Positions 5,401 to 20,936 of a stretch of DNA of 46,673 nt are shown here, one piece after another (position 1 is the first letter of the stretch; the number at the start of each line of letters is the position of its first letter). Location of the stretch: NCBI GenBank assembly GCA_019235715.1, contig JAFAKE010000095.1:1-46673 (forward strand). Direction: 5' to 3'. This DNA is from Vulcanimicrobiota bacterium (lineage in GTDB: Bacteria; Vulcanimicrobiota; Vulcanimicrobiia; Eremiobacterales; Eremiobacteraceae). Position numbers and translations under genes: made by a program. The notes under the pieces were generated by a model that saw only the letters and a program-made list of their open reading frames with translations, ran no database searches and was not told where the DNA came from.

Positions 5401-7052
<1,652 letters not shown>

Positions 7053-7056
<4 letters not shown>

Positions 7057-8585
7057 AGCACGCCGATCTCGGCCTCGACCGCGTGCACGAGTTCACCGCT
7101 GCCCACAAGTTCGCGCGTGACCGCGATGTCCTGCGAAAGATTACGATCCTCTTTGAGATGCGGCACGCGTTCGCGCACGAGCCGGTGCGCGACGGCGGTA
7201 CCCTTGCCGCACGTCAGCGGCGCGCGGAAGTCGAGCGCTTGGGCCGCCTCAAGCAACTCAATCGCGATGACGTTTTCGAGATTGCCGACGACCTGCTCGC
7301 ACTGACGCGCCGATATCGTGCCCATGCTGACGTGATCTTCTTGGCCCGCGGACGTCGGGATAGAATCGACCGACGCCGGATACGACAGCGTCTTATTCTC
7401 GGACACCAGCGCGGCCGCCGTGTATTGCGCGAGCATGTAGCCGCTATGCAAACCGTGACCCTCGGACAGAAACGGGGGCAGGCCTTCGAGGCCTTCGAGG
7501 AGTTTGTAGATGCGCCGCTCGGCGATCGATCCGAGCTCGGTGAGCGCCATGGACAGATAATCCATCGCCAGCGCGACCGGTTCGCCATGGAAATTGCCGC
7601 CTGTCAAAAACGAGGCGTCCTCGGGGATGACGATCGGATTGTCGGTCACCGAGTTCATCTCGATGACGAGCGTGTTCTCGACGGCGTGCAGCGCATCGCG
7701 CACCGCGCCGTGCACGACCGGAATGCAGCGGAACGAATACGGGTCTTGCACGCGGTCGCAATCGACGTGCGAGGCCAAGATGCCCGAGCCGCGCAGTAGG
7801 TGACGCATGTTGGCCGCGACGCGGGCCTGGCCCGGGTGCGGACGCAGCGCGTTCAAACGCTCGTCGAAGGCAGCAGCCGTTCCGAAAAACGCTTCAAGGC
7901 TCATCGCGCCCGCGATGTCAGCCGCCTTACACGCGAGCTCAGCACGGTAGGCGGTCAGCGCGCCGATGCCGGTCATGATCTGCGTGCCGTTGATCAGCGC
8001 AAGCCCTTCCTTAAAAGAGAGGACGACCGGCTTGAGATTCGCGGCACGCAGCGCGTCGCCGCCCGGCAGGCGCTCGCCCGCATACATCGCCTCGCCTTCG
8101 CCGATCAGCACGAGCGCCATGTGCGCGAGCGGCGCCAAATCGCCGGATGCGCCGACCGAACCCTTTGATGGGATGAGCGGCCACACGCGGCGGTTGAGCA
8201 TCTCGAGCAATAGGTCGATGATCTCCGCGCGCACGCCCGAATAGCCGCGCGCGAGTGAGTGTGCGCGCAATAGGACCGAGGCGCGCGTCGCGTCTTCGGG
8301 CAGCGGTTCGCCGACGCCGGTGCAGTGGCTCAAGACGAGATTGCGCTGCAGCTCGATCGCGTCTTTCGGATCGATCATGACGCTCTTGAGCCGCCCAAAG
8401 CCGGTCGTCACGCCGTAGATCTGCTCTCCAGCTTTGACCGTGCGTTCGACGAGATCGCGTCCTGCTTGCACGAGCGGGCGCACGTTGTCAGCGAGCTTGA
8501 CGTCGGTACCGCCTGTTGCGATGCTCTTGACCAAGGGAATCGTCAAGTTCGTCCCGTCGATGTGGACGAGGTGAGAGGTAAGCAC
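7053..8585 (-). CDS. hutH: Histidine ammonia-lyase
   Basis: Deaminates L-histidine to urocanate, the first step of the Hut pathway. The protein has 510 residues from the chosen GTG at 8585. The MIO-forming triad A146-S147-G148 lies in [11 protein letters not shown], and Tyr57 lies in YGVTTGFG. The open frame runs on upstream to 8813, but that part is not lyase-like and overlaps the divergent cmk gene; GTG 8585 gives the family length and the usual N-terminus ([12 protein letters not shown]). No strong Shine-Dalgarno site precedes it. It is divergent from cmk across 77 bp with no clear promoter, and hutU is translationally coupled downstream. Confidence 0.95.
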
Positions 8586-8662
8586 AATCCGTATTTCGTG
8601 ACGTAGACGCGGGCATCCGCTCGCGTGGAGACCACCGCGTGCGTGCGTCATCGCAAAGGAAC

Positions 8663-9349
8663 ATGCAGCCGCTTCAAATCGCCATCGACGGTCCGGTCGC
8701 ATCGGGCAAGAGCACGGTCGCCGCGCGCCTCGCGCAGCGCCTGCACTGCGCGTTCCTCGACACCGGGGCGTTATATCGCGCGGTCGCATGGCTTGCGCTG
8801 CAGCGCGGCACATCCTTAGCTGACGAACGCGCGGTGCTCGAGCTGCTCGAAGCGGAAACGCCCTCGATCGCTGCTCCCGGGCCGCAAGGACGCGCCGTGA
8901 TCGTCGCCGCCGGCAAAGAACTCGGTAACGAGCTGTTCACGCCTGAGGTGTCGCGCGCCGTTTCGTTGATCGCGGCCATGCCGGGTGTTCGCGACCGGCT
9001 TATCCCCGCACAGCGCGCCTTTGCCGACAAACGCAGCGTCGTCATGGCGGGGCGCGATATCGGCACCGTCATCTTGCCGCACGCCTCGATCAAGTTCTTC
9101 TTGACCGCCGCGCTTGACACGCGCGTCGGGCGACGGCAGCGCGAGCTCGAGGCGCGCGGGCTTGCGATCGACGGCGACGCCTTGCGCGCGCAAGTGCAGC
9201 GCCGCGACGCGCGCGACAGCGGGCGCGAGGTTTCGCCGCTCAGCAAGGCGCCCGATGCGATCGAGATCGACACGACGGACATGACGTTCGACGAGGTTGT
9301 GGACGAGCTCGAGCGTCTGGTGCGCGCCGCGACGACGCAGCGCGCGTGA
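8663..9349 (+). CDS. cmk: Cytidylate kinase
   Basis: Phosphorylates CMP and dCMP with ATP. The Walker A loop is IDGPVASGKST near residue 6; LDTGALYRAV, GRDIGTVI and the C-terminal IDTTDMTFDEVV are family signatures. The protein is 228 residues from the ATG at 8663, chosen because AAAGGA (8655-8660) lies just upstream and the P-loop then sits at the usual N-terminal position; an in-frame start at 8639 would add eight unsupported residues. Its TGA overlaps the GTG of plsC. The order cmk-plsC-ispH is a recurrent arrangement in bacteria. Confidence 0.93.
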   Translation: MQPLQIAIDGPVASGKSTVAARLAQRLHCAFLDTGALYRAVAWLALQRGTSLADERAVLELLEAETPSIAAPGPQGRAVIVAAGKELGNELFTPEVSRAVSLIAAMPGVRDRLIPAQRAFADKRSVVMAGRDIGTVILPHASIKFFLTAALDTRVGRRQRELEARGLAIDGDALRAQVQRRDARDSGREVSPLSKAPDAIEIDTTDMTFDEVVDELERLVRAATTQRA

Positions 9350-9948: not shown

Positions 9949-10806
9949 ATGGAAATCCTCAGAGCGCGCACCCAAGGATTCTGCTTCGGCGTCGAGCTGA
10001 CGTACAAGAAAGCGCTTGCGGAGACCGCGCAGCACGACGACGTGCACACGCTCGGCAACATCGTGCACAACCCGATCATCGTCAAAGAGCTTGACGATCG
10101 CGGTCTTATCAATATCGACTCGGTGGACGATATCGAATCCGGCACGCTATTCGTGCGCGCACACGGCTTGCCGCCGCAAACGCTTGAGAAAGCCGAGGCC
10201 AAAGGCCTGCGGGTCGTCGACGCGACCTGCCCGATGGTCACGCGCACGCAGAAACTCGCCAAGAAGCTGCAAGACGAAGGCCGCAGCATCATCATCCTCG
10301 GCGACCCGAATCATCCCGAAGTCAAGGGCATCGCCGGGCACGTACCCGGCGCGCTCATCATGAACGAGTGGCCGCAAGACGAGTCGCAGATCCGCAAGAT
10401 GCGGCGCATCGCGATCGTTTCGCAGAGCACCTTGAACGAGGACAAGTTCAAGGAGCTGGTCGGGCGCATCTCAGCGATCAACTACGAGACGCGCATCTAC
10501 AACACGATCTGTCCGGATACGCAGGGCCGCCAGTTGTCGGCGCGCGAGCTTGCGCGCGACGTCGACGTCATGATCGTCATCGGCGGCACCAAGTCGGCCA
10601 ACACTCGACATCTCGCCGAGATCTCGGAGGCCGAAGGCGCGAAAGCACACCTCGTCGAGCGGGTCGACGACCTGCAGCGCGAGTGGTTTAGCGGTCAAGA
10701 ACGCGTCGGCATCGCGACGGGAGCGTCGACGCCCGGTTTTCTCGCGGATGAAGTCGAGCAGCGCTTGCTCGAATGGTTCCCGACTGCAGAGTCAGTCGCG
10801 GTCTAG
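9949..10806 (+). CDS. ispH: 4-hydroxy-3-methylbut-2-enyl diphosphate reductase
   Basis: The last enzyme of the MEP pathway; it reduces HMBPP to IPP and DMAPP using a [4Fe-4S] cluster. The three cluster cysteines are visible: Cys12 (GFCFGV), Cys94 (DATCPMV) and Cys188 (NTICPDTQGRQ). Other family sites are the NIVHNP histidine, VRAHG, GDPNHPEV and GGTKSANTRHL. The length of 285 residues is normal for the short form. It starts ten bases after plsC. Its 3' end overlaps that of the convergent hpnG by 15 bp. It feeds the isoprenoid/hopanoid operon encoded on the opposite strand. Confidence 0.96.
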   Translation: MEILRARTQGFCFGVELTYKKALAETAQHDDVHTLGNIVHNPIIVKELDDRGLINIDSVDDIESGTLFVRAHGLPPQTLEKAEAKGLRVVDATCPMVTRTQKLAKKLQDEGRSIIILGDPNHPEVKGIAGHVPGALIMNEWPQDESQIRKMRRIAIVSQSTLNEDKFKELVGRISAINYETRIYNTICPDTQGRQLSARELARDVDVMIVIGGTKSANTRHLAEISEAEGAKAHLVERVDDLQREWFSGQERVGIATGASTPGFLADEVEQRLLEWFPTAESVAV

Positions 10807-11388
10807 CAGCGCCTTCGCGAGCACGCGCGCGGCGACGCGCGCGCACCGCGGTCCCTCACGAGCGATCCACCCGATTTGAGGCCACGCATCTGGACGCCAC
10901 GCGATCGTCCACGGCGCGAGCCACGCATCTGAGAGCTCGCGTGCCGGCGTATCCAACACCGCCCTGACGCACGCGATGCGCGGCGCGCGCACGAGACCTG
11001 TCTCCATATCGACCGCGATGCATCCACGCTGCAGCCAGGCGGCGCGCGACGCCCCGTTGACGAGCGCTTCACTCGTCAGCAGCATTCCCGCGTGCGGCTC
11101 GTGGCCCTCATCGCGCGCTGCGCGCATGAGCTGTGCGAACAGCTGCTCATCGCATTCCACGACGCGTCCATCCGAGGCCATCACGCGTTGGGCGATCACG
11201 ACAGAGCCGGTCGAAAGCTCCGGCGTAAGGCCGCCCGCAAGTCCGCACGTGATCACTGGACCATCGAACTCGGGTCTGTTGAGACGCTTCAAACGCACGC
11301 CGCATTCGATGATGCGCACATCGCGCCGCGGACCCAATGCGGCGCACACGGCTTGCTTTTCGATGCGCGTCGCCGCGAGAACCGTCAG
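10792..11388 (-). CDS. hpnG: Hopanoid-associated phosphorylase HpnG (possible CTG start)
   Basis: A member of the nucleoside phosphorylase/MTAN superfamily. In hopanoid clusters HpnG releases adenine from adenosylhopane to give a phosphoribosyl/ribosylhopane. Seen here: the glycine-rich loop ITCGLAGGL, the conserved VDMETG ribose-binding motif, and position last in the hopanoid operon. The first canonical start is GTG at 11349, but the frame is open upstream and encodes LTVLAATRIEKQAV, the expected first beta-strand and helix of the fold. I therefore place the start at CTG 11388, ten bases after the hpnA stop; no ATG, GTG or TTG lies in that stretch. From GTG 11349 the protein would be 185 residues. 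Confidence 0.8.
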   Translation of the reverse strand: MTVLAATRIEKQAVCAALGPRRDVRIIECGVRLKRLNRPEFDGPVITCGLAGGLTPELSTGSVVIAQRVMASDGRVVECDEQLFAQLMRAARDEGHEPHAGMLLTSEALVNGASRAAWLQRGCIAVDMETGLVRAPRIACVRAVLDTPARELSDAWLAPWTIAWRPDAWPQIGWIAREGPRCARVAARVLAKALLDRD

Positions 11389-11398
11389 TTGCGAGCGG

Positions 11399-12415
11399 TC
11401 AGTTGAGATATCCGTGGCCGCGATACCATGCGACGGCCCGTGCGAGCGCGGCCCGCACGGACGTCGGGTGAAAACCGAGCTCGTCGCGCGCCTTCGCGCA
11501 CTCGACGTGCATGCGCAGGCGAGACATGCGCACGCCCTCCAGCGGCACCATCGGCTCCGCCGCTGTCAAAAGTCGGCAGCGTGCTTCATCGGCGTACGCG
11601 AGTGCGATCGCGACGCCGTACGGAATCGTCCAACGCGGTACCGGCCGCGCGGTCGCTTCGCCGAGAGCCCGCCACAGCTCGTCGTAGCTGAGGTTCTCAC
11701 CGCCGATCAAATACCGTTCGCGTGCCCGGCCGCGCTGGAGTCCCGCCACGTGCGCTGCGGCGACATCTTCGACCGCCACAAGATTGAGGCCGCCGGTCGC
11801 CGGCGGCCGCGCGAAAATGCGGCCGCGCGCGAAATCCACGACGAGACGTCCGGTCGGCGTCGGCTTGGCGTCGCGTGGACCGACCGGCGTCGTCGGCAGC
11901 ACGAGCACGGTTTCGACACGCGCAGCGCCCGCGATGCGCTCTTGCAAGATCTTCGAGCGATGATACGCCGAATGATGTTCCTCCGGCGCGCGATCCGCTT
12001 CGGTCGCAAGATGCCCGTTGCGCGCCGGTCCGACCGTCGCCGAGCTTGACGTCACCACTGCGCGCTCGACGCCGGCGACGTAGGCGGCATCGAGCAGCGA
12101 AGCCGTGCCCGCGACGTTGACGCGCTCGATGTCGGCGCGCAAGCGCGGCGCGAACGAATACAGCGCCGCGCAATGCACGAGGTAACGGCAGCCGTCAAGT
12201 GCGCGCGCGAGCTCGCCCGAACGCGTGAGATCGCCCTCGACGATCTCGACGCCGCTCGGGACGACGTCCGGTCGCCGCCCACGCTCCTGCGTTGCGCCGT
12301 TGTGACGCACGAGCGCGCGCACGCGATAACCGGCGCGCAGCAGGGCGTCCGCCACGTGGCTGCCGACAAATCCGCTTGCGCCCGTTAGGAAGACGTAGTC
12401 GCTACTTGAGGACAG
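11399..12415 (-). CDS. hpnA: Hopanoid-associated sugar epimerase HpnA (possible CTG start)
   Basis: An extended short-chain dehydrogenase/reductase of the NAD-dependent epimerase type, found in hopanoid clusters with an unproven role in side-chain sugar processing. The Rossmann motif TGASGFVG is near the N-terminus, VTSSSATVG holds the catalytic serine region, and SAYHRSK holds the YxxxK pair. The first canonical in-frame start, GTG 12355, would remove the Rossmann glycines, and an in-frame stop lies just upstream in hpnH. The only usable near-start codon is CTG at 12415, inside the end of hpnH, giving 338 residues, a normal HpnA length. The start is inferred; the family call is strong. Confidence 0.85.
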   Translation of the reverse strand: MSSSSDYVFLTGASGFVGSHVADALLRAGYRVRALVRHNGATQERGRRPDVVPSGVEIVEGDLTRSGELARALDGCRYLVHCAALYSFAPRLRADIERVNVAGTASLLDAAYVAGVERAVVTSSSATVGPARNGHLATEADRAPEEHHSAYHRSKILQERIAGAARVETVLVLPTTPVGPRDAKPTPTGRLVVDFARGRIFARPPATGGLNLVAVEDVAAAHVAGLQRGRARERYLIGGENLSYDELWRALGEATARPVPRWTIPYGVAIALAYADEARCRLLTAAEPMVPLEGVRMSRLRMHVECAKARDELGFHPTSVRAALARAVAWYRGHGYLN

Positions 12416-13409
12416 CGGCCCGGACCATCTCTTTCAGCGAGCCCATCGTCGCCTCGACGGCCGTTGGTTCGTAGCCGCAATGCGCCATGCAATTCTCGCA
12501 CTTGGCGTGACGGCCGCGCCCGTACAATTCCCACTGCGTGTCTTCGACCAGCTCTTTATACGATTTCGCGTATGGCGCATCCGACATGAGGTAGCACGGA
12601 CGCTGCCAGCCCAGCACCGAATATGAGGGGATGCCCCACGCGGTGCACGAGAAATCGCGTTTCCCTTCAAGAAAATCCAAATAGAGCGGGCTGTGGTTGA
12701 GGCGCCACTTGCCGCGCCGTCCGCCGCGAAACGCTTCGCGGAAGATCGCGCGCGTACGCTCAACCCCGAGGAAATGCTCTTGGTCAGGCGCCTTCTCATA
12801 CGCAAAGCCGGGCGCGATCTGCATCATGTCGACGCCGAGCTCGTCGTTGAGAAAATCGAGCACGCCGCGGATGCTGTTCGCGTCGTCCTGGCCGAAGAAC
12901 GTCGAATTGGTGGTCACGCGGAAGCCGCGTTGCTTCGCCTCGCGCACGGCGGCGACCGCTTGATCGAAGATGCCGTCGCGGCACACCGACTCGTCGTGGC
13001 GCTCGCGCAAGCCGTCGATGTGCACCGACCACGCGAAATAGGTCGACGGCTTGAATTGATCGAGCTTGCGGCGCATCATGATCGCGTTCGTGCAGAGGTA
13101 GACGAAGCGTTTGCGCTCGATGATCGCCGCTGCGATCTCGCCGATCTCCTTATGGATGAGCGGTTCGCCGCCGGCGATCGAGACGATCGGCGCGCCGCAT
13201 TCCTCGACCGCGTCGATGCATTGCTGCACGCTGAGCCGGCGCGCGAGCACTTCATCGTTGTGCTGGATCTTGCCGCAGCCCGCGCACGCCAGGTTGCACT
13301 GATACAGCGGCTCGAGCTGCAAGACAAGCGGATACTTCTTGCGCCCGCGCATGCGCTGGCGCATCAAGTACGAGAAAACGGCTAATTTCTGCCGGAGCGG
13401 TACGCTCAT
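12402..13409 (-). CDS. hpnH: Adenosyl-hopene transferase HpnH (radical SAM)
   Basis: Joins a 5'-deoxyadenosyl radical to diploptene to make adenosylhopane, the first committed step of extended (C35) hopanoids. The radical SAM cluster motif CxxxCxxC is Cys38/Cys42/Cys45 (CNLACAGC). Further sites are IAGGEPLIH, and a C-terminal cysteine-rich stretch CENCMAHCGYEP typical of HpnH. The 335-residue length is normal. The ATG overlaps the shc stop (ATGA), so the two are translationally coupled. Its presence shows that the host is equipped to make side-chain hopanoids and not only diploptene. Confidence 0.95.
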   Translation of the reverse strand: MSVPLRQKLAVFSYLMRQRMRGRKKYPLVLQLEPLYQCNLACAGCGKIQHNDEVLARRLSVQQCIDAVEECGAPIVSIAGGEPLIHKEIGEIAAAIIERKRFVYLCTNAIMMRRKLDQFKPSTYFAWSVHIDGLRERHDESVCRDGIFDQAVAAVREAKQRGFRVTTNSTFFGQDDANSIRGVLDFLNDELGVDMMQIAPGFAYEKAPDQEHFLGVERTRAIFREAFRGGRRGKWRLNHSPLYLDFLEGKRDFSCTAWGIPSYSVLGWQRPCYLMSDAPYAKSYKELVEDTQWELYGRGRHAKCENCMAHCGYEPTAVEATMGSLKEMVRAAVLK

Positions 13410-15286
13410 GCGGTCTCCCGCGCGGTCAGATCGCCCACGTGCCGTCCGCGCATCTCAAGCTCGCGCTGCCGGTCCAGCGCCAGCGCCATCACAGGGAACA
13501 AGTGTCTGTACATATGATAGTTGATGTAGAAGTCCCTCGGAAATCCAGTGCCGGTGTGTTCGGGCTCTGGCCACGTGCCGCCGCTTTGCCGTTCGCGCAG
13601 ATAGTCGAGGCCGCGCGCGCACGCCGGATGGTCTTCAAAGCCGGCGCGCTGTAGGCCCATCACTGCCCAGGCCGTCTGCGACGCCGTGCTGCGTCCGATG
13701 CCGGCGAACGACGGGTCGACGTACGAGTGACAGGTCTCGCCCCAGCCGCCATCGCGGTTCTGGACGCCGGTGAGCCAGTGCGCCCCGCGCAAGGTCATCG
13801 CCTGACCCGCGTTGACCGCAGCGAGTCCCCAGATCGCGCACCACGTGCCATACACGTAATTGACACCCCAGCGGCCGAACCAGGAGCCGTCCGGACGCTG
13901 CGTGCGCTGCAGATATGCAAGGCCGCTGCGCACGTCGCGATCGCGTTCGCCGCGATCGAGCGCGCCAAGCATCTCGATGACGTGCGCGGTGACGTCTTCG
14001 GACGGAGGATCGATCATCGCGCCGAAATCCGCGAATGGGATGCGATAGGCGAGCTCGTTGGTGTTGTCGCGGTCGAACGCGGCCCAGCCTCCGTTGCTCG
14101 AGCGCATCGCGAGCGTCCAGCGCACGGCTTTATCGACAGCGGCGCGGACGACGTCCGGTTCGCCGCCTTCGAGCAGCGCGAGCACGACGACCGCCGTGTC
14201 GTCGACATCGGGATAGATGTCGTTGTCGAATTCAAACGCCCACCCGCCGCACTCGTCGAGCGCGCAGCGCACCTGCCAATCGCCCCCGCAGACGATCTGC
14301 TCGTCGAGCAGCCAGCGGATCGCCTTGCGCAACGCCGGATCTTCGCGCGGCACGCCCGCCATGCGCAACGCGCGCACGGCCCACGCCGTATCCCACACCG
14401 GCGACATGCACGCGGAGAAACGCCAGCCATCCGCATCGTCGACCGCAAATCTGTTCATGCCTTCGAGCCCCTTGCGCATCACCGGATGATCGAGGCCCAT
14501 GCCTTCAAGACTGAGCGCGATGAGTGAATAGACCCACGGCGGCTGTATGCCGCCCCAGCTGCCGTCGGCTTCTTGGCGTTCGATGATCCAGCGCGTCATG
14601 TGGCGGCGTGCGATGCTGCGTCCAGGCTTGACCGGAAGGCGCTCGTACGTCTTGAGCAATGCATCGAGCCACCAGAAGACGCCATTCCCGGGCACGCGTG
14701 CCATGCGCGCCTCGCTGCCGTTGACGATGATCTCGCTGAGCGAAACGCCGAGGTCGCGCACCGGGCGGCGCGCGATGACGATGGTGAGCGGCGCGATCGT
14801 GCCCCGCGCCCAGCAGGAGAAGCTGTAAAGATTGAACGGCACGCGCGACGGCAGAAATACGATCTCGGGCGGCATGGTCGGGATGCCAGACCATGGATAG
14901 ATGCCGAAAAGCGCGAGCCAGATCTTGGTGAACACGCGCGCTTCGGCGGCCCCGCCGAGCCGGCGGATGACGTCGAGCGCCTTCACCATCGGCGCGCTTT
15001 CGGGTGCGACGCCGAGCACCTTGAGCGCGGCGTACGTCTCGATCGTCGTGCTCAGGTCGGCCGGACCATCGTGATAGAGCGCCCAGGATCCGTCCTCACG
15101 CTGATAGCGCATGAAATGGGCGATCGCGCCGTCGCGAATCGCATCGAGCGGCAGCCCGAGAAAGCGCAGCAGCAGCACGTGCTCGGCGGTCATCGTCACG
15201 TTGGTCTCAAGCTCGCCGGTCCACCAGCCGTCAGGATGCTGATTTTCCAGCAGCCAGTCGATCCCGCGTTGTAGCGCGTCAGGCAA
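13406..15286 (-). CDS. shc: Squalene-hopene cyclase
   Basis: Cyclises squalene to hopene/hopanol at the membrane. The protonating DxDD motif is D360-V-D-D363, and many QW repeats of the form GGWG/DGSWFGRWG are present throughout (for example EDGSWALY, EADGSWGG, RDGGWGE). The length of 626 residues fits the family. The TTG start at 15286 overlaps the hpnE stop by eight bases; the first residues (ALQRGIDWLLENQHPDGWW) form a complete N-terminus, so TTG is supported. It is the key enzyme linking hpnCDE upstream to hpnHAG downstream. Confidence 0.97.
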   Translation of the reverse strand: MPDALQRGIDWLLENQHPDGWWTGELETNVTMTAEHVLLLRFLGLPLDAIRDGAIAHFMRYQREDGSWALYHDGPADLSTTIETYAALKVLGVAPESAPMVKALDVIRRLGGAAEARVFTKIWLALFGIYPWSGIPTMPPEIVFLPSRVPFNLYSFSCWARGTIAPLTIVIARRPVRDLGVSLSEIIVNGSEARMARVPGNGVFWWLDALLKTYERLPVKPGRSIARRHMTRWIIERQEADGSWGGIQPPWVYSLIALSLEGMGLDHPVMRKGLEGMNRFAVDDADGWRFSACMSPVWDTAWAVRALRMAGVPREDPALRKAIRWLLDEQIVCGGDWQVRCALDECGGWAFEFDNDIYPDVDDTAVVVLALLEGGEPDVVRAAVDKAVRWTLAMRSSNGGWAAFDRDNTNELAYRIPFADFGAMIDPPSEDVTAHVIEMLGALDRGERDRDVRSGLAYLQRTQRPDGSWFGRWGVNYVYGTWCAIWGLAAVNAGQAMTLRGAHWLTGVQNRDGGWGETCHSYVDPSFAGIGRSTASQTAWAVMGLQRAGFEDHPACARGLDYLRERQSGGTWPEPEHTGTGFPRDFYINYHMYRHLFPVMALALDRQRELEMRGRHVGDLTARETA

Positions 15287-16568
15287 CGCTCGATTCTCCT
15301 TGCGTGACGATCGCCGCAGCCGCAGAGCGCCCGCTGATCACCGCGGATTCCATTGTGTCAGGCCAGCCGGTATTCGTCCATGAACCCGCGACCACGACAT
15401 TGTCCAGCGCCGTGCGTGCGCCTGGTCGCGTGGTGCCGGCGCGTGCCATGAACGTCGCGGCCGGCGTGCGCGTCGCCGCGCCGTCTTCGAGCGAAGCGTC
15501 GAGCAGGCCCGGGAGCAGCGCTCGCGCCTCGCTCCAGCACAGATCGATCAGCTCGCGGCTCGGCTTGCCGACGTATTCCTCCGCAGCGCTCATGCTGGCG
15601 CACAAGTAGCCGGGCGCTTTTTCAAAGATCCATTGGATCGGCGAGTCGAGCAGCGCAGCGAAATCAAAGCCGAGCGACCCGCGATCGTGCCATAAGTGGA
15701 CGTCGACGATGGGCAGCGAGTCGTATTGATCGAGCGCCGACAAGCCTGCGCGCGCCGGGTCGCCGAGCAGCTGCGCCAGTTGCGGTGGCGGCAGCGCCAG
15801 TACGACGGCGTCGAACTGCGGGCGCTCGCCGCCATCGAGCTCAAGCGCGAGCGCGCGATCGCCGCGCGCCGACAGCGCGAGCCCCGTGACCGGCGTTTCC
15901 AAGCGCACAAAATCCAAACGCGCGGCCGCGGCAGCCGCGATGTGCGCCAACGGCACGGTCGAATAACCGAAACGCGCTGCGCCCGCGTTCGCGAGAAACG
16001 CGGTACTCATGACAAACCCGGCATCGGCTGCGCTCATGCGGTCGAGCGGCGCATTCAGTGCCGGCACGAAAAACGGCCGCCAGAACGCGCGCAGCGCCTG
16101 TTCGTCTTGCCCGCGCTGCGCGAGCCAGTCGCCGAAAGAACTGCTGGAGCGTTGCGCGCTGGCCGCTCCAGCTAAAGCGCGCGCGACGCGCATCTTCGAG
16201 TTCCACCCGAGATGACGATAGCCCGCGAACGACGCGATCATGTGCAGCGGAGCCGGAAGCCGCCCCGCGCGCAGCCGGCTGATGACGCCGCTACGCGAGA
16301 TGACGACCGCTTCAAATCGCTCTTGCAGATGGAGATGCGTTCCCATGCCGACGCGTTCGACAAAATCGATGAACTCGGTGCAGCAGCCCAAAAAGACGTG
16401 CTGCCCATTGTCGACTTCGTGTCCGCCGGCGACGAACGATGTCGCACGCCCGCCGAGCAGCCGGCTGCGCTCGTACAGCGTGACCTCGCAACCTGCGTCG
16501 TGCAGGTCGAGCCCCGCAGCGAGGCCTGCAAGGCCCGCGCCGACGACCGCTACCCTGCGCGCAGCCAT
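15279..16568 (-). CDS. hpnE: Hydroxysqualene dehydroxylase HpnE
   Basis: A FAD-dependent amine-oxidase-fold enzyme that reduces hydroxysqualene to squalene, the last step of the three-enzyme HpnCDE squalene route. The dinucleotide-binding motif GAGLAG is at residues 10-15, followed by LYERSRLLGGRATSF and DNGQHVFLGC, both typical of HpnE. The C-terminal FAD site appears as VVAGSWTNTGWPDTMESAVISGR. Length 429 residues. The ATG overlaps the end of hpnD by 19 bases. Confidence 0.93.
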   Translation of the reverse strand: MAARRVAVVGAGLAGLAAGLDLHDAGCEVTLYERSRLLGGRATSFVAGGHEVDNGQHVFLGCCTEFIDFVERVGMGTHLHLQERFEAVVISRSGVISRLRAGRLPAPLHMIASFAGYRHLGWNSKMRVARALAGAASAQRSSSSFGDWLAQRGQDEQALRAFWRPFFVPALNAPLDRMSAADAGFVMSTAFLANAGAARFGYSTVPLAHIAAAAAARLDFVRLETPVTGLALSARGDRALALELDGGERPQFDAVVLALPPPQLAQLLGDPARAGLSALDQYDSLPIVDVHLWHDRGSLGFDFAALLDSPIQWIFEKAPGYLCASMSAAEEYVGKPSRELIDLCWSEARALLPGLLDASLEDGAATRTPAATFMARAGTTRPGARTALDNVVVAGSWTNTGWPDTMESAVISGRSAAAAIVTQGESSVA

Positions 16569-17407
16569 GACTCAAGCACGACGCGCAGCTTTTCGATGCG
16601 TGACAGAGACGCGCGTGCGCGCAACGGGAGCTCCGGGTCGCGTTCGATTTTTCCGAGGATGCTGAAGTAGATGCCGGCCATCGTCTGCACGCACACCGCT
16701 GCGCGCCGCGGTATGTAGTCGGTGACGAGCAGCCCGCGTGCGAAAAGCGCACGCGCGCGCTGCGTCTCGAACTCGACGAGTGCGCGCCAGTTCGCGCTCG
16801 GGCGTCCTTCGAGCAGATAGCGCTCGGTGACGCCGAAGCGCTCGAGATCCTCGGCCGGCAGATAGATGCGCCCGAGCTGCGCGTCTTCGCGCACGTCGCG
16901 CAAGATGTTCGTCAGCTGCAGCGCAAGTCCCAATTCATCGGCGTGATCGAGCGCCGCCGGGTCGCTAAATCCGAAGATGCGCACGCACATGCGGCCGACG
17001 ACAGACGCGACGAGGCGGCAATACGTCTGCAGCTCGGCCCACGTCGCATAGCGGGCGCGGTACGAATCCATGTCGACGCCGTCGACCAGCGCGAGCAGCT
17101 CTTGCTCGGGAATGCCGTAGCGCGTCATCGCGTGCGCCAACACGTGCATGACCGGATCGGTGAACTCGCCGCGCGCGCAGGCGCGCACGCGTTCGCGCTG
17201 CGCCTCGAGCCGCTGCGCCAAACCCGAACGGCCGGGCGTGTCCGCCTCGTCGTCGACTTGACGCGCGAAATCGTACAGCGCGTAGATCGCGACGCGCTGA
17301 TCGCGTTCGAGCGAGATGAAGCCCCAATAGAAGTTCTTGGCCTCGCGCGAAGCCATGCGCTGGCAATAGCGCTCGGACTCGCGCAGCGTCAGCGCGGCGG
17401 CTGCCAT
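16550..17407 (-). CDS. hpnD: Presqualene diphosphate synthase HpnD
   Basis: Condenses two farnesyl diphosphates to presqualene diphosphate. A squalene/phytoene synthase-fold protein of 285 residues, with aspartate-rich motif 1 (YDFARQVDDEAD) and motif 2 (NILRDVREDAQLGRIYLP). The frame is open further upstream, to 17572, but that part runs antiparallel to no domain and overlaps hpnC; ATG 17407, one base after the hpnC stop, gives the normal N-terminus (SERYCQRMASREAKNFYWGF). Assigned as HpnD and not HpnC by similarity of motif 1 and by gene order. Confidence 0.92.
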   Translation of the reverse strand: MAAAALTLRESERYCQRMASREAKNFYWGFISLERDQRVAIYALYDFARQVDDEADTPGRSGLAQRLEAQRERVRACARGEFTDPVMHVLAHAMTRYGIPEQELLALVDGVDMDSYRARYATWAELQTYCRLVASVVGRMCVRIFGFSDPAALDHADELGLALQLTNILRDVREDAQLGRIYLPAEDLERFGVTERYLLEGRPSANWRALVEFETQRARALFARGLLVTDYIPRRAAVCVQTMAGIYFSILGKIERDPELPLRARASLSRIEKLRVVLESWLRAG

Positions 17408-17408
17408 G

Positions 17409-18260
17409 TCAGGCGGTTTCGGCGCGGCGCATATGCTGATCGCCACGGCGCGCGAGCCGCAGCAGCGCGCCGCCGAGCGTCTTTGCTTTGCCGGCGGCCG
17501 AGACCGCAGGGCGCTGCACGTCGGTGTGATATCCGCAGCGCTCAATCGCGGCGATGATGGCAAGGCCGCCAAGGCGATACAATGCCAGCTGGAAGCGCAA
17601 CGCCGGCGGAGCCATCGCTTCGAGGTCGTAGCCCGACGCGAGCAGGGTGCGCGCGCGCTCGCAATGCGCCTTGACGGCGCCGGCGATGCCGTCGCGAGAC
17701 ACCTCCGGCGCGAGCAGATAGCAACGTCCTTTGCCGCGGTCGACGCTCACGTCTTGCGCGAAATTCGCCAGCTGCAGACCGATGCAGACATCGTCCGAAA
17801 GCTGTTCCGCGTCCGCGCCGCCGATGCCGAACACTTTGAGGACCATGCGGCCGACCGGTGCGGCGGAGTGCTCGCAGTACGAGTGCAGCTCGGCCATGCT
17901 GTCGTAGTGATCGACTCGCTGGTCCTGGACGTTGGCCGCGATCAGATCGAGGAACGGCGCGGCCGGCATGTGCAGGCGCTCGACCGTTTCCTGCAATGCG
18001 ACCAGCACCGGGTGCACCGGCATACGGCCTTCGAACAGCGCCACGACCTCATCGCGCCAACGTTCGAGTCGCGTGAGCGCCGCATCGCCGCTCTCGTCTC
18101 CGAAATCGTCCGTCGAGCGGCAGAACGCGTAAATGCGCCGCAAGTCGCGACGGACGAGCGGATGCGCAAAACGCGAGGCGACGATGAAATTCTCGTAGTG
18201 GCCGCTGGCCATGCGCGCGCAGTACGCGTCGGCGGCGCTGCGTTCAAACGATTCGCTCAC
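17409..18260 (-). CDS. hpnC: Hydroxysqualene synthase HpnC
   Basis: Converts presqualene diphosphate to hydroxysqualene. A second squalene-synthase-fold protein (283 residues) with motif 1 in YAFCRSTDDFGDE and motif 2 in QLANFAQDVSVDRGKGRCYL; HYENF near the N-terminus is typical of HpnC. The GTG at 18260 overlaps the upstream stop codon (GTGA), making it the natural coupled start; the frame extends upstream without family sequence. With HpnD and HpnE it replaces the single squalene synthase used by eukaryotes and some bacteria. Confidence 0.92.
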   Translation of the reverse strand: MSESFERSAADAYCARMASGHYENFIVASRFAHPLVRRDLRRIYAFCRSTDDFGDESGDAALTRLERWRDEVVALFEGRMPVHPVLVALQETVERLHMPAAPFLDLIAANVQDQRVDHYDSMAELHSYCEHSAAPVGRMVLKVFGIGGADAEQLSDDVCIGLQLANFAQDVSVDRGKGRCYLLAPEVSRDGIAGAVKAHCERARTLLASGYDLEAMAPPALRFQLALYRLGGLAIIAAIERCGYHTDVQRPAVSAAGKAKTLGGALLRLARRGDQHMRRAETA

Positions 18261-19843
18261 GCACCGATGACCTGCACGACGACGTCGCGCTCGCGGCTCG
18301 AGCATAGCTCGATCAGGAAGATGCGCTGCCAGCGCCCGAGCGCGATCACGCCTTCAACGACCGGCAGCGTCTCGCTCGAGGACAGCAGCAGGTGGCGGCA
18401 ATGCGAGTGGCCGTTGACGGGTTCGTCGGGCGCGACGCCGACGCGCCGTGGGATGTCGTCGTGCTCGTAGGCGCCATTGCCGGCCGGCGCGACCCGTTCG
18501 AGGAAGCGCTCGAAATCGCCGAGCAGCAATTCTTCGTTCTCGTTGATGCGAATAGCGGCCGTGGTGTGCGTGGAATAGACATGCACGAGCCCGTTGCGCA
18601 CACCCGAACGCTTCACGGCTGCCGCCACGTCTTCGGTGATGTCGTGGAACTTGCTCGCACCCTCGGTGCGATAGTGAAGCCGCTCGCTGCGCAGCGCGGC
18701 GTCGCCGTCGTCGCGGCGCCGGCAGCGCGGCGTTGCGCGCAAGTGCGCGAGCGTTTTGGCGCCGACGCCGAACATCGCGATGCGCAAGACCTCTATCCAC
18801 TCGCGCGCCAAGTCTGCAGCCGCCTGTTCGCCTGCGGCAGCCGCGCGCAAGAACGGCCCGGCGATGCCGACGAGGTCCGCGCCCAGCGCGATCGCCTTTG
18901 CGATGTCGATGCCGTCGCGGATGCCGCCGCTCGCGAAGATGTGTTTGTCGGGCGCGACGCGGCGCGCATCGCGCAGGCACTCCGCGGTCGAGATGCCCCA
19001 ACCCGCAAAAGAGGCGGCGACGCGATTGCGCCACGCGGCCTCGATGCGGTGGCGCTCGACTTCGCTCCAGCTGGTGCCGCCCGCGCCGGCGACGTCAATC
19101 GCGCTGACGCCGGCGCTGAAAAGCTGTTCGACGACGTCGGAAGCGATGCCCCAGCCGACTTCCTTGACGATGACGGGACGCTCGAGGCGCGCGCACACCT
19201 CTGCGATGCGTCCGAGCAGACCGTCGAAACATGTGTCGCCGTCCGGTTGCAGCGCTTCTTGCAGTGCGTTGAGATGCAGCACGAGCGCATCGGCGGACAG
19301 CATGTCTACCAGACGTCTGCATTCTTCGACGCCGCAGCCGCGATTGAGCTGCACGGCGCCGAGATTCGCGAACAGCAATGCGTCAGGCGCAAGCGGGCGC
19401 ACGTTGAATGTATCAAGCAGCTCCGGATGTTCGAGCAATACTCTGCCCGATCCGAGGCCCATCGCCAGGCCGGCACCCTGCACGACGCGCGCAAGCGTGC
19501 GGTTGATCTCGCGCGCTTCGCTGGTGCCGCCCGTCATGCACGAGATCAAGATCGGCGCTGCGAGGCGGCGTCCGAACAACTCCGTGGACGTTTCGATGGC
19601 GTCGAGGTCGACCTCCGGCAGCGCGCAATGCACGAAGCGATACGCGTCAAAGCCGTTGTCGATGCCTTTGCTCGCGACATCGTCTTCGATGTTGATCCGG
19701 ATGTGATCGGCCTTTCTGGACGCGGTGCCGCCATCGACCGGCGCAAGGCTGCCGTTTCCAGTGCGCGCGCGGCGATTGACAAAAGCAGATCCTATTGACG
19801 CGAACGTGCTTACCGCCTTGTTATCGAACGCGTTTTGCCACAT
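18257..19843 (-). CDS. fni: Type 2 isopentenyl-diphosphate isomerase fused to a YjbQ (UPF0047) domain
   Basis: Residues ~43-375 are a type 2 (FMN-dependent) IPP isomerase: RKADHIRIN, the APILISCMTGGT loop, LHLNALQEALQPDGD, VKEVGWGI, DVAGAGGTSW and a C-terminal FMN-phosphate loop (FASGGIRDGIDIAKAIALGADLVG). It interconverts IPP and DMAPP. Residues ~386-528 form a complete YjbQ domain (FHDIT, HTTAAIRINENE, GNGAYEHDD, GHSHCRHL, LGRWQRIFLIELC), a family with weak reported thiamine-phosphate-synthase activity and no settled role. Both domains are in one frame with no stop and no ATG/GTG/TTG at the junction. ATG 19843 was chosen because GAGG lies nine bases upstream; it overlaps the preceding gene by 23 bases. 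Length 528, against ~340 for the isomerase alone. Confidence 0.88.
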   Translation of the reverse strand: MWQNAFDNKAVSTFASIGSAFVNRRARTGNGSLAPVDGGTASRKADHIRINIEDDVASKGIDNGFDAYRFVHCALPEVDLDAIETSTELFGRRLAAPILISCMTGGTSEAREINRTLARVVQGAGLAMGLGSGRVLLEHPELLDTFNVRPLAPDALLFANLGAVQLNRGCGVEECRRLVDMLSADALVLHLNALQEALQPDGDTCFDGLLGRIAEVCARLERPVIVKEVGWGIASDVVEQLFSAGVSAIDVAGAGGTSWSEVERHRIEAAWRNRVAASFAGWGISTAECLRDARRVAPDKHIFASGGIRDGIDIAKAIALGADLVGIAGPFLRAAAAGEQAAADLAREWIEVLRIAMFGVGAKTLAHLRATPRCRRRDDGDAALRSERLHYRTEGASKFHDITEDVAAAVKRSGVRNGLVHVYSTHTTAAIRINENEELLLGDFERFLERVAPAGNGAYEHDDIPRRVGVAPDEPVNGHSHCRHLLLSSSETLPVVEGVIALGRWQRIFLIELCSSRERDVVVQVIGA

Positions 19844-20936
19844 ACTCTGCAACCTCGACGAATTCTGCGACGCGCGCCGGCACAAGGCCGGCCGCTTTGA
19901 TCTCTCGGATCGCCCTCGCCGCGTAGTGTTGTGGAGCCGATGCCGTAAGCTCGGGGCCGCCTGCCGCCTCGAGCAGCGCGCGTATCTGCCGCCCCGCGTC
20001 GCGCACTCCGGAGCCGAACAACTCGCGCAGCCGCTCGCGCTGCACCGGTTTCATCGCGGAAAAAGCCGCGACGATCGGAAACGTGAGCTTGCGGCGAGTG
20101 ACATCTCCTTCCGAAGACTTGCCGGTCGCCGAGGTGTCGCCCCACACACCCAACCAGTCGTCGCGGATCTGAAACGCCTTGCCGAGCAGTTCACCCGCTT
20201 TGCGGAATCGCTGCGCGGTTTGATCGGACGCGCCTGACATCACGGCGCCGGTCTGCAAGCTCGCGCCGAGCAAGGCGCCCGTCTTGAAGCCGACGACGCG
20301 CAGGTACGCGCGCACCGACGCTTCCGGCCGGCCCTCCATGCGCAGATCGAGGCACTGGCCTTCGACGGTGACAAGCGTCGCGTCGGCGATGATGCGCGCG
20401 GCGCGCAGCTGGCGTTCGGGATAGGGACCGCTTGCGGTCAACGAGCGCATTGCGAGCGCATGCAACGCGTCGCCGGCGTTGATGCCCTGCGGCGCGCCCC
20501 AGATCGCCCATACGGTCTCACGATGGCGCCGCATGCGGTCACCATCTTGGATGTCGTCGTGAACCAGCGTGAAGTTGTGGGTCCACTCGAGGGCCGCAGC
20601 AACCGGCAGCGCGAGCACCGCATCGCCGCCGCTCGCCTCGCACGCCCACAGGCAGAGGCTTGGACGCACGAGCTTGCCCGGCGACGCATCATGGCTGTGG
20701 CCGCCGGCATCGATCCATCCCATATGGTAGGAGGTCATCGTGCCGGCAAGCGAGCTTTGCGGCAGGGCATTCGCGCGCAAATAACGCGCGATGTCGCTTG
20801 TATAGCGGCTCAACACGCTCGGGCTTATGTTCGTCGTCTCTACATGCGCTGCGAGCGCGGGTGATGATGACATCGAAGAGCCGCGGTTCCCCATCGTCAC
20901 GGTCGGCACCGCCGTTTTCTGCCGTCCCGCGCGCAT
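19821..20936 (-). CDS. Polyprenyl diphosphate synthase (probably farnesyl or geranylgeranyl)
   Basis: A trans-isoprenyl diphosphate synthase of 371 residues, first gene of the hopanoid operon. The first aspartate-rich motif is DDIQD (127-131, within LVHDDIQDGD) and the second is IRDDWLGVWGD; GKLVRPSL supplies the IPP-binding Gly-Lys...Arg. Phe at -5 before the first motif suggests a short product, fitting FPP supply to HpnD, but chain length cannot be fixed by eye. The start is uncertain: ATG 20936 has GAGCGAGG directly upstream with very short spacing, while ATGs at 20894 and 20873 are also in frame. It is divergent from the GT-C gene across ~166 bp, which should hold both promoters; no clear -35/-10 pair was found there. 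Confidence 0.88.
   Translation of the reverse strand: MRAGRQKTAVPTVTMGNRGSSMSSSPALAAHVETTNISPSVLSRYTSDIARYLRANALPQSSLAGTMTSYHMGWIDAGGHSHDASPGKLVRPSLCLWACEASGGDAVLALPVAAALEWTHNFTLVHDDIQDGDRMRRHRETVWAIWGAPQGINAGDALHALAMRSLTASGPYPERQLRAARIIADATLVTVEGQCLDLRMEGRPEASVRAYLRVVGFKTGALLGASLQTGAVMSGASDQTAQRFRKAGELLGKAFQIRDDWLGVWGDTSATGKSSEGDVTRRKLTFPIVAAFSAMKPVQRERLRELFGSGVRDAGRQIRALLEAAGGPELTASAPQHYAARAIREIKAAGLVPARVAEFVEVAEYVAKRVR

Follow-up and report, generated by a model that had tools for sequence, protein, structure and literature searches.

Proteins of the YjbQ/UPF0047 family are found widely among bacteria and archaea, with 10 of the 14 control genomes used here encoding one, and, to our knowledge, the sole activity reported for the family is a weak side activity that was found by over-expression. 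Two described enzymes of isoprenoid precursor supply are IspH, which is an iron-sulphur reductase, and Fni, which is a flavoenzyme also termed the type 2 IPP:DMAPP isomerase (IDI-2). The latter interconverts IPP and DMAPP in dependence on FMN and Mg and carries an active-site H-x-N-x-x-Q-E motif. The YjbQ activity has been placed in thiamine synthesis, with the part of PMC11551756 that cites Morett 2008 mentioning a weak thiamine-phosphate synthase activity for the family and stating that, in E. coli, over-expressed yjbQ compensates for the loss of thiE.

The window, by which is meant the whole stretch of 46,673 nucleotides analysed here (contig JAFAKE010000095.1 of a Vulcanimicrobiota bacterium), contains a gene that joins Fni to YjbQ, an arrangement that occurs in some soil bacteria. 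The preliminary description placed a complete type 2 IPP isomerase and a complete YjbQ domain in one frame at 18257-19843, between a prenyl synthase and hpnC; the coordinates are correct, the gene is on the minus strand, and its position was confirmed with neighbours identified by profile. The genes lie tightly packed on the same strand in the order prenyl synthase, fusion, hpnC, hpnD, hpnE, shc, hpnH, hpnA and hpnG-like, with ispH convergent at the end of the operon:

19821-20936, minus strand: polyprenyl (short-chain) diphosphate synthase (PF00348, 195 bits), overlapping the start of the fusion gene by 23 bases
18257-19843, minus strand: fni-yjbQ fusion gene, 528 amino acids, with its ATG at 19843
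18728-19717, minus strand: type 2 IPP:DMAPP isomerase domain, residues 43-372 (TIGR02151, Foldseek, HLNALQE)
18680-18727, minus strand: linker of about 16 residues (373-388), variable among fusions
18260-18679, minus strand: YjbQ/UPF0047 domain of the isoprenoid-linked clade, about residues 389-528 (PF01894, TIGR00149, pLDDT)
17409-18305, minus strand: hpnC (profile match), starting inside the end of yjbQ with a 49-base overlap
16550-17572, minus strand: hpnD (profile match)
15279-16568, minus strand: hpnE (TIGR03467, 360 bits)
13406-15286, minus strand: squalene-hopene cyclase, shc (TIGR01507, 717 bits)
12402-13409, minus strand: hpnH (TIGR03470, 518 bits)
11399-12355, minus strand: hpnA (TIGR03466, 273 bits, under the cut-off of 368)
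10792-11349, minus strand: hpnG-like phosphorylase (TIGR03468, 63 bits, under the cut-off)
9949-10806, plus strand: ispH (LytB; PF02401, 277 bits), overlapping hpnG by 15 bases

The best match of the prenyl synthase at 19821-20936 on the minus strand is NF041169 (family 2 encapsulin cargo polyprenyl transferase; 297 bits, under the cut-off of 450). Elsewhere in the window, a urocanase and an aromatic amino acid (histidine) ammonia-lyase form a pair on the minus strand (5401-8813) that probably has a role in histidine use.

Both halves of the fusion match their families over the cut-offs, with no stop codon between them. The isomerase half scores 399.4 bits against TIGR02151 (cut-off, 281.3) over profile positions 2-333 of 338 and residues 43-372, and the HLNALQE at residues 190-196 matches H-x-N-x-x-Q-E, while the YjbQ half (residues 390-527) gives full-length matches to PF01894 (114.2 bits; cut-off, 27) and to TIGR00149 (104.6 bits; cut-off, 67.75), which reach as far as residue 527. 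Upstream of the ATG the reading frame continues without a stop up to a TTG at 19885, for an alternative ORF of 542 amino acids, and the ATG at 19843 was taken as the start because other fusions start at the matching position; the plus strand over 18257-19843 is broken by stops. For a structure of the fusion predicted from 64 related sequences the mean pLDDT is 88.9; most of each domain exceeds 90, and disorder is predicted in the first 37 residues only. Its top Foldseek hits among solved structures are IDI-2 enzymes, among them that of S. shibatae in complex with IPP (TM score on the target, 0.88). All of the family-invariant residues are kept in the YjbQ half (D401, T403, G418, H426, T428, D443, H461, N477, H481, G503 and R517), whereas two thirds of the fusions, this one (Cys 514) among them, carry a Cys where the ELD(G) motif otherwise has a nearly invariant Asp. 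Specific to the clade are an extra loop of about 10 residues before the NGHSH motif and the residues H479, R432 and R519.

The fusion is a real, conserved architecture. It is present in 4 of the 14 genomes of the window's family, spread over four genera, and these are exactly the genomes with a squalene-hopene cyclase over the cut-off; the remaining 10 have neither the fusion nor the cyclase, and one of them belongs to the same genus and is 97% complete. Across 149 Eremiobacterota genomes, Fni occurs in 72 and the fusion in 4. A sample of 301 Chloroflexota genomes contained five further full fusions (G504, G100, G101, G099 and G560) and two more that are either split or truncated at the edge of a contig; the sample was assigned to Chloroflexota through members that it shares with a sample of Dehalococcoidia. 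As the fusion is also carried by three further members of the family and by Chloroflexota genomes, and so by many independent assemblies, an assembly artefact was ruled out as its source. In one Chloroflexota genome (G102:C101:10671-12145, locus L056), Fni-YjbQ runs in two frames, with the break within the Fni part, from either a frameshift or a sequencing error. Two observations had been named beforehand as ones that would speak against the preliminary description, relatives encoding the domains as separate neighbouring genes with a stop at the junction and fusions outside an isoprenoid context; no such relatives were found, and hopanoid genes are present on every fusion-bearing contig in a scan of one genome per species. 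Five loci in the database (L047, L048, L051, L054 and L055) are labelled Bacillota or Proteobacteria, and at least the label of L048 is wrong, since it is the same contig as that of G009 from the window's own family.

The closest relatives without the fusion have no clade-type YjbQ at all. A related, hopanoid-producing family of the Eremiobacterota (f2) encodes Fni alone, directly before hpnC, and likewise has no clade-type YjbQ. Fused YjbQ domains group together weakly in the YjbQ tree (support 71/0), a single clade of fused Fni domains was rejected (AU test, p = 0.008), and the single Fni genes of f2 are nested among the fused ones. The simplest reading, and the one that fits these trees best, would be a single fusion event, after which f2 lost the YjbQ half, with transfer also possible. 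None of the four f2 Fni genes inspected is followed by a YjbQ remnant, and an apparent extension beyond the stop of such genes was rejected as a remnant and is hpnC sequence. Because many Eremiobacterota that produce hopanoids possess the isomerase and lack the YjbQ half, the latter is accessory to the pathway and dispensable for making hopanoids. Mean pN/pS, taken over seven fusions, is 0.33 in the isomerase, 0.37 in YjbQ and 0.88 in the linker; purifying selection on the YjbQ half is as strong as on the isomerase half and does not extend to the linker, so the YjbQ half is kept for a function of its own and not simply carried along.

The company kept by relatives of the fused domain points to what that function may be. 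One genome per bacterial and archaeal species was scanned with four fused YjbQ domains, yielding 80 loci, the ten best of which are Fni fusions (one broken, L056). The next-best are stand-alone yjbQ genes of the Bipolaricaulota and Chloroflexota, 45-59% identical to the fused domain; they lie for the most part in hopanoid operons and are immediately preceded by ispH (TIGR00216, 249-260 bits). In a tree of 100 YjbQ domains, a branch with support 95/85 parts 80 clade rows from 20 general ones, and the second, stand-alone YjbQ of the window's genome (32% identical to the fused domain) falls among the latter. Of the 70 loci whose clade-type YjbQ is full, 10 have Fni before or fused to it and 38 have IspH immediately upstream (together 48 of 70 with one of the two directly before YjbQ). 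At nine more, some other isoprenoid gene lies within 2 kb, and at 13 there is no such gene; these counts are not independent, as the loci are related and most come from Bipolaricaulota. The weight therefore rests on the association persisting while gene order and phylum change. Typical orders are prenyl synthase, hpnH, hpnG, ispG, shc, ispH, yjbQ and DUF116 in Bipolaricaulota; hpnC, hpnD, hpnE, ispH, yjbQ, prenyl synthase and hpnH in Dehalococcoidia; and prenyl synthase, fni-yjbQ, hpnC, hpnD, hpnE and shc in Eremiobacterota. An isoprenoid gene within 2 kb was found at none of nine general YjbQ loci. The 13 unlinked clade members belong to Chloroflexota, Bipolaricaulota, Woesearchaeota and Moraniibacteriota, and one of them is cut by a contig end.

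Single ORFs that join IspH to YjbQ, with both domains over the cut-offs, were present at two loci:

L072:7092-8423: IspH-YjbQ, 443 residues, on a complete Dehalococcoidia chromosome
L106:7071-8414: IspH-YjbQ, 447 residues, Dehalococcoidia

The Fni and IspH fusions fall in different parts of the clade and thus represent two separate fusion events. Two other candidates for an IspH fusion were rejected: in G251 the two genes share a frame and are separated by one TGA, and in L078 the long frame is a read-through that is not the frame of IspH. Two further genes were observed near clade members, a DUF116 gene (PF01976) after yjbQ, often with overlapping ends (L071:8390-8842 and most Bipolaricaulota loci), and, on a Dehalococcoidia chromosome, an ORF of 239 residues between SHC and yjbQ with no match in Pfam or NCBIfam (L108:7229-7945).

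On the basis of sequence and gene context, the clade likely serves isoprenoid precursor supply, with IPP, DMAPP or both as its ligand, because Fni and IspH share no fold or cofactor and have IPP and DMAPP in common. In the window, the fusion protein would tether a YjbQ module that handles a C5 prenyl diphosphate to the IPP:DMAPP isomerase, near the start of the hopanoid operon, a reading to which we give an even chance. The site formed by His, Asp, Asn and Arg may bind the diphosphate and activate it for displacement, by analogy to the weak thiamine-phosphate synthase side activity, in which diphosphate is displaced from an activated carbon; such chemistry would suit the allylic DMAPP. The module might transfer the prenyl group to an acceptor, dispose of excess C5 diphosphate by hydrolysis, or sense the ligand so as to give feedback on the partner enzyme; all three would fit. 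Catalysis by the clade on DMAPP or IPP is possible, at roughly a third in our estimate, and the proposal of a dedicated isoprenoid YjbQ subfamily that converts the IPP or DMAPP supplied by IspH or Fni, with the fusion channelling the C5 unit, is tentative and on the doubtful side. The earlier suggestion that YjbQ acts on isoprenoid diphosphates has gained strong circumstantial support from relatives that lie behind or are fused to ispH in other phyla, and an isoprenoid-diphosphate role is now much better supported than when it was first put forward; the control of flux into squalene that was suggested alongside it would be a possibility only.

Several other explanations would account for part of this pattern. 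A fused YjbQ that is a thiamine-phosphate synthase could lie near MEP genes because DXS needs thiamine diphosphate and DXP feeds both pathways, and it would be in keeping with the substitution of high-dose E. coli yjbQ for thiE (cited in PMC11551756) and with the lack of a ThiE over the cut-off in all 16 Bipolaricaulota genomes tested that have an IspH-linked YjbQ. Against this, 15 of the same 16 genomes also lack ThiC, and so the pyrimidine unit by the usual route, and have kept the IspH-linked YjbQ, while ThiC and ThiE are both present in the four Eremiobacterota fusion genomes and in the Dehalococcoidia G069, G070, G077 and G081. Clade members are placed behind ispH or fni and not beside thi genes; the YjbQ copies near thiC and thiE are of the general type. 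Three Dehalococcoidia (G069, G081 and G070) have both, a clade copy in the hopanoid operon and a general paralogue that is close to thiE and no more than about 2.5 kb from thiC, so that two YjbQ copies keep different company in one genome:

L169:3550-4005: general-type YjbQ near thiC/thiE
L170:2153-2611: general-type YjbQ near thiC/thiE
L171:3273-3743: general-type YjbQ near thiC/thiE

Given the distribution of ThiC and ThiE and the general type of the thi-linked copies, the fused domain is unlikely to have a role in thiamine synthesis. A YjbQ with no reaction of its own could instead act as a trimeric scaffold or stabiliser, keeping its partner, whether the isomerase or IspH, close to the prenyl synthase and the enzymes of squalene synthesis, or building a large assembly from oligomers whose symmetries differ; several YjbQ crystal entries contain 3 or 6 chains, an octameric type 2 isomerase structure has been solved (3vkj), and the linker is short and variable. 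We consider this improbable, in that the invariant D401, T403, H426, T428, D443, H461, N477, H481 and R517 are kept, as for a working site, and most clade members are separate proteins. The fusion could also be functionally meaningless, an unrelated yjbQ of an isoprenoid operon having been joined to its neighbour through loss of a stop codon, an easy event given gaps of about 40 to 130 bases between ispH and yjbQ and the single in-frame TGA of G251, but this is improbable in view of two separate fusions with Fni and IspH, retention across genera and two phyla, the strong purifying selection, and the isoprenoid neighbours that the clade keeps though the surrounding gene order changes. Very unlikely, finally, is that the clade YjbQ is itself an IPP/DMAPP isomerase in genomes where IspH lacks such a partner. 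No Fni exceeded the cut-off in any of the 35 genomes whose clade member is unfused, nor did an IDI-1 in any of the 36 clade genomes tested, but such an activity would be redundant in a fusion with Fni, and missing Fni says little because only 16 of 289 Dehalococcoidia have it; absence is the background state there, and loss of IDI was set aside as an uninformative sign of replacement.

Should the isoprenoid reading hold, a part of the YjbQ family would gain a function and a physiological substrate, and hopanoid producers an overlooked component in their supply of isoprenoid precursors; if the clade proves to be a dedicated enzyme, it would represent a further step, or a point of control, where the pathway branches off to squalene and hopanoids. 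Two separate fusions to IPP/DMAPP enzymes, together with an operon link over three phyla, name a small set of substrates. We know of no YjbQ with demonstrated activity on a prenyl diphosphate, and a literature search, which left most subscription journals outside its reach, returned no paper pairing YjbQ with isoprenoids; the fusion architecture is unreported as far as the literature searched shows. The Fni and YjbQ families themselves are known, and what is new here is the isoprenoid company of the YjbQ relatives.

Compared with described type 2 isomerases (Fni, IDI-2; TIGR02151; 2zrw, 3b03, 1vcg and 1p0k), the isomerase half is a full-length match over the curated cut-off with HLNALQE in place, and is 35-43% identical to the closest solved enzymes by structural alignment; unlike ordinary members it bears a C-terminal YjbQ, as do only 4 of the 72 Fni-bearing genomes of the phylum. 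The YjbQ half is likewise full-length relative to YjbQ/UPF0047 (PF01894, TIGR00149; 1ve0, 2p6h, 1vmh and 1vmj) and keeps the invariant His, Asn, Asp, Thr and Arg, whereas it departs from ordinary members in belonging to a separate clade, in the extra loop before NGHSH, in a Cys for Asp and in its fusion to an isomerase. Every core gene of the known hopanoid operon, hpnCDE-shc-hpnHAG, is present and in order, with the difference that the fusion gene lies between the prenyl synthase and hpnC. The nearest counterparts are the unfused YjbQ copies that follow ispH in Bipolaricaulota and Dehalococcoidia (L057, L061, L069 and L104), which belong to the same clade, lie in hopanoid operons and, like the fused copy, are directly downstream of an enzyme that yields IPP and DMAPP; their partner is IspH, actually fused only in L072 and L106, whereas that of the window copy is Fni.
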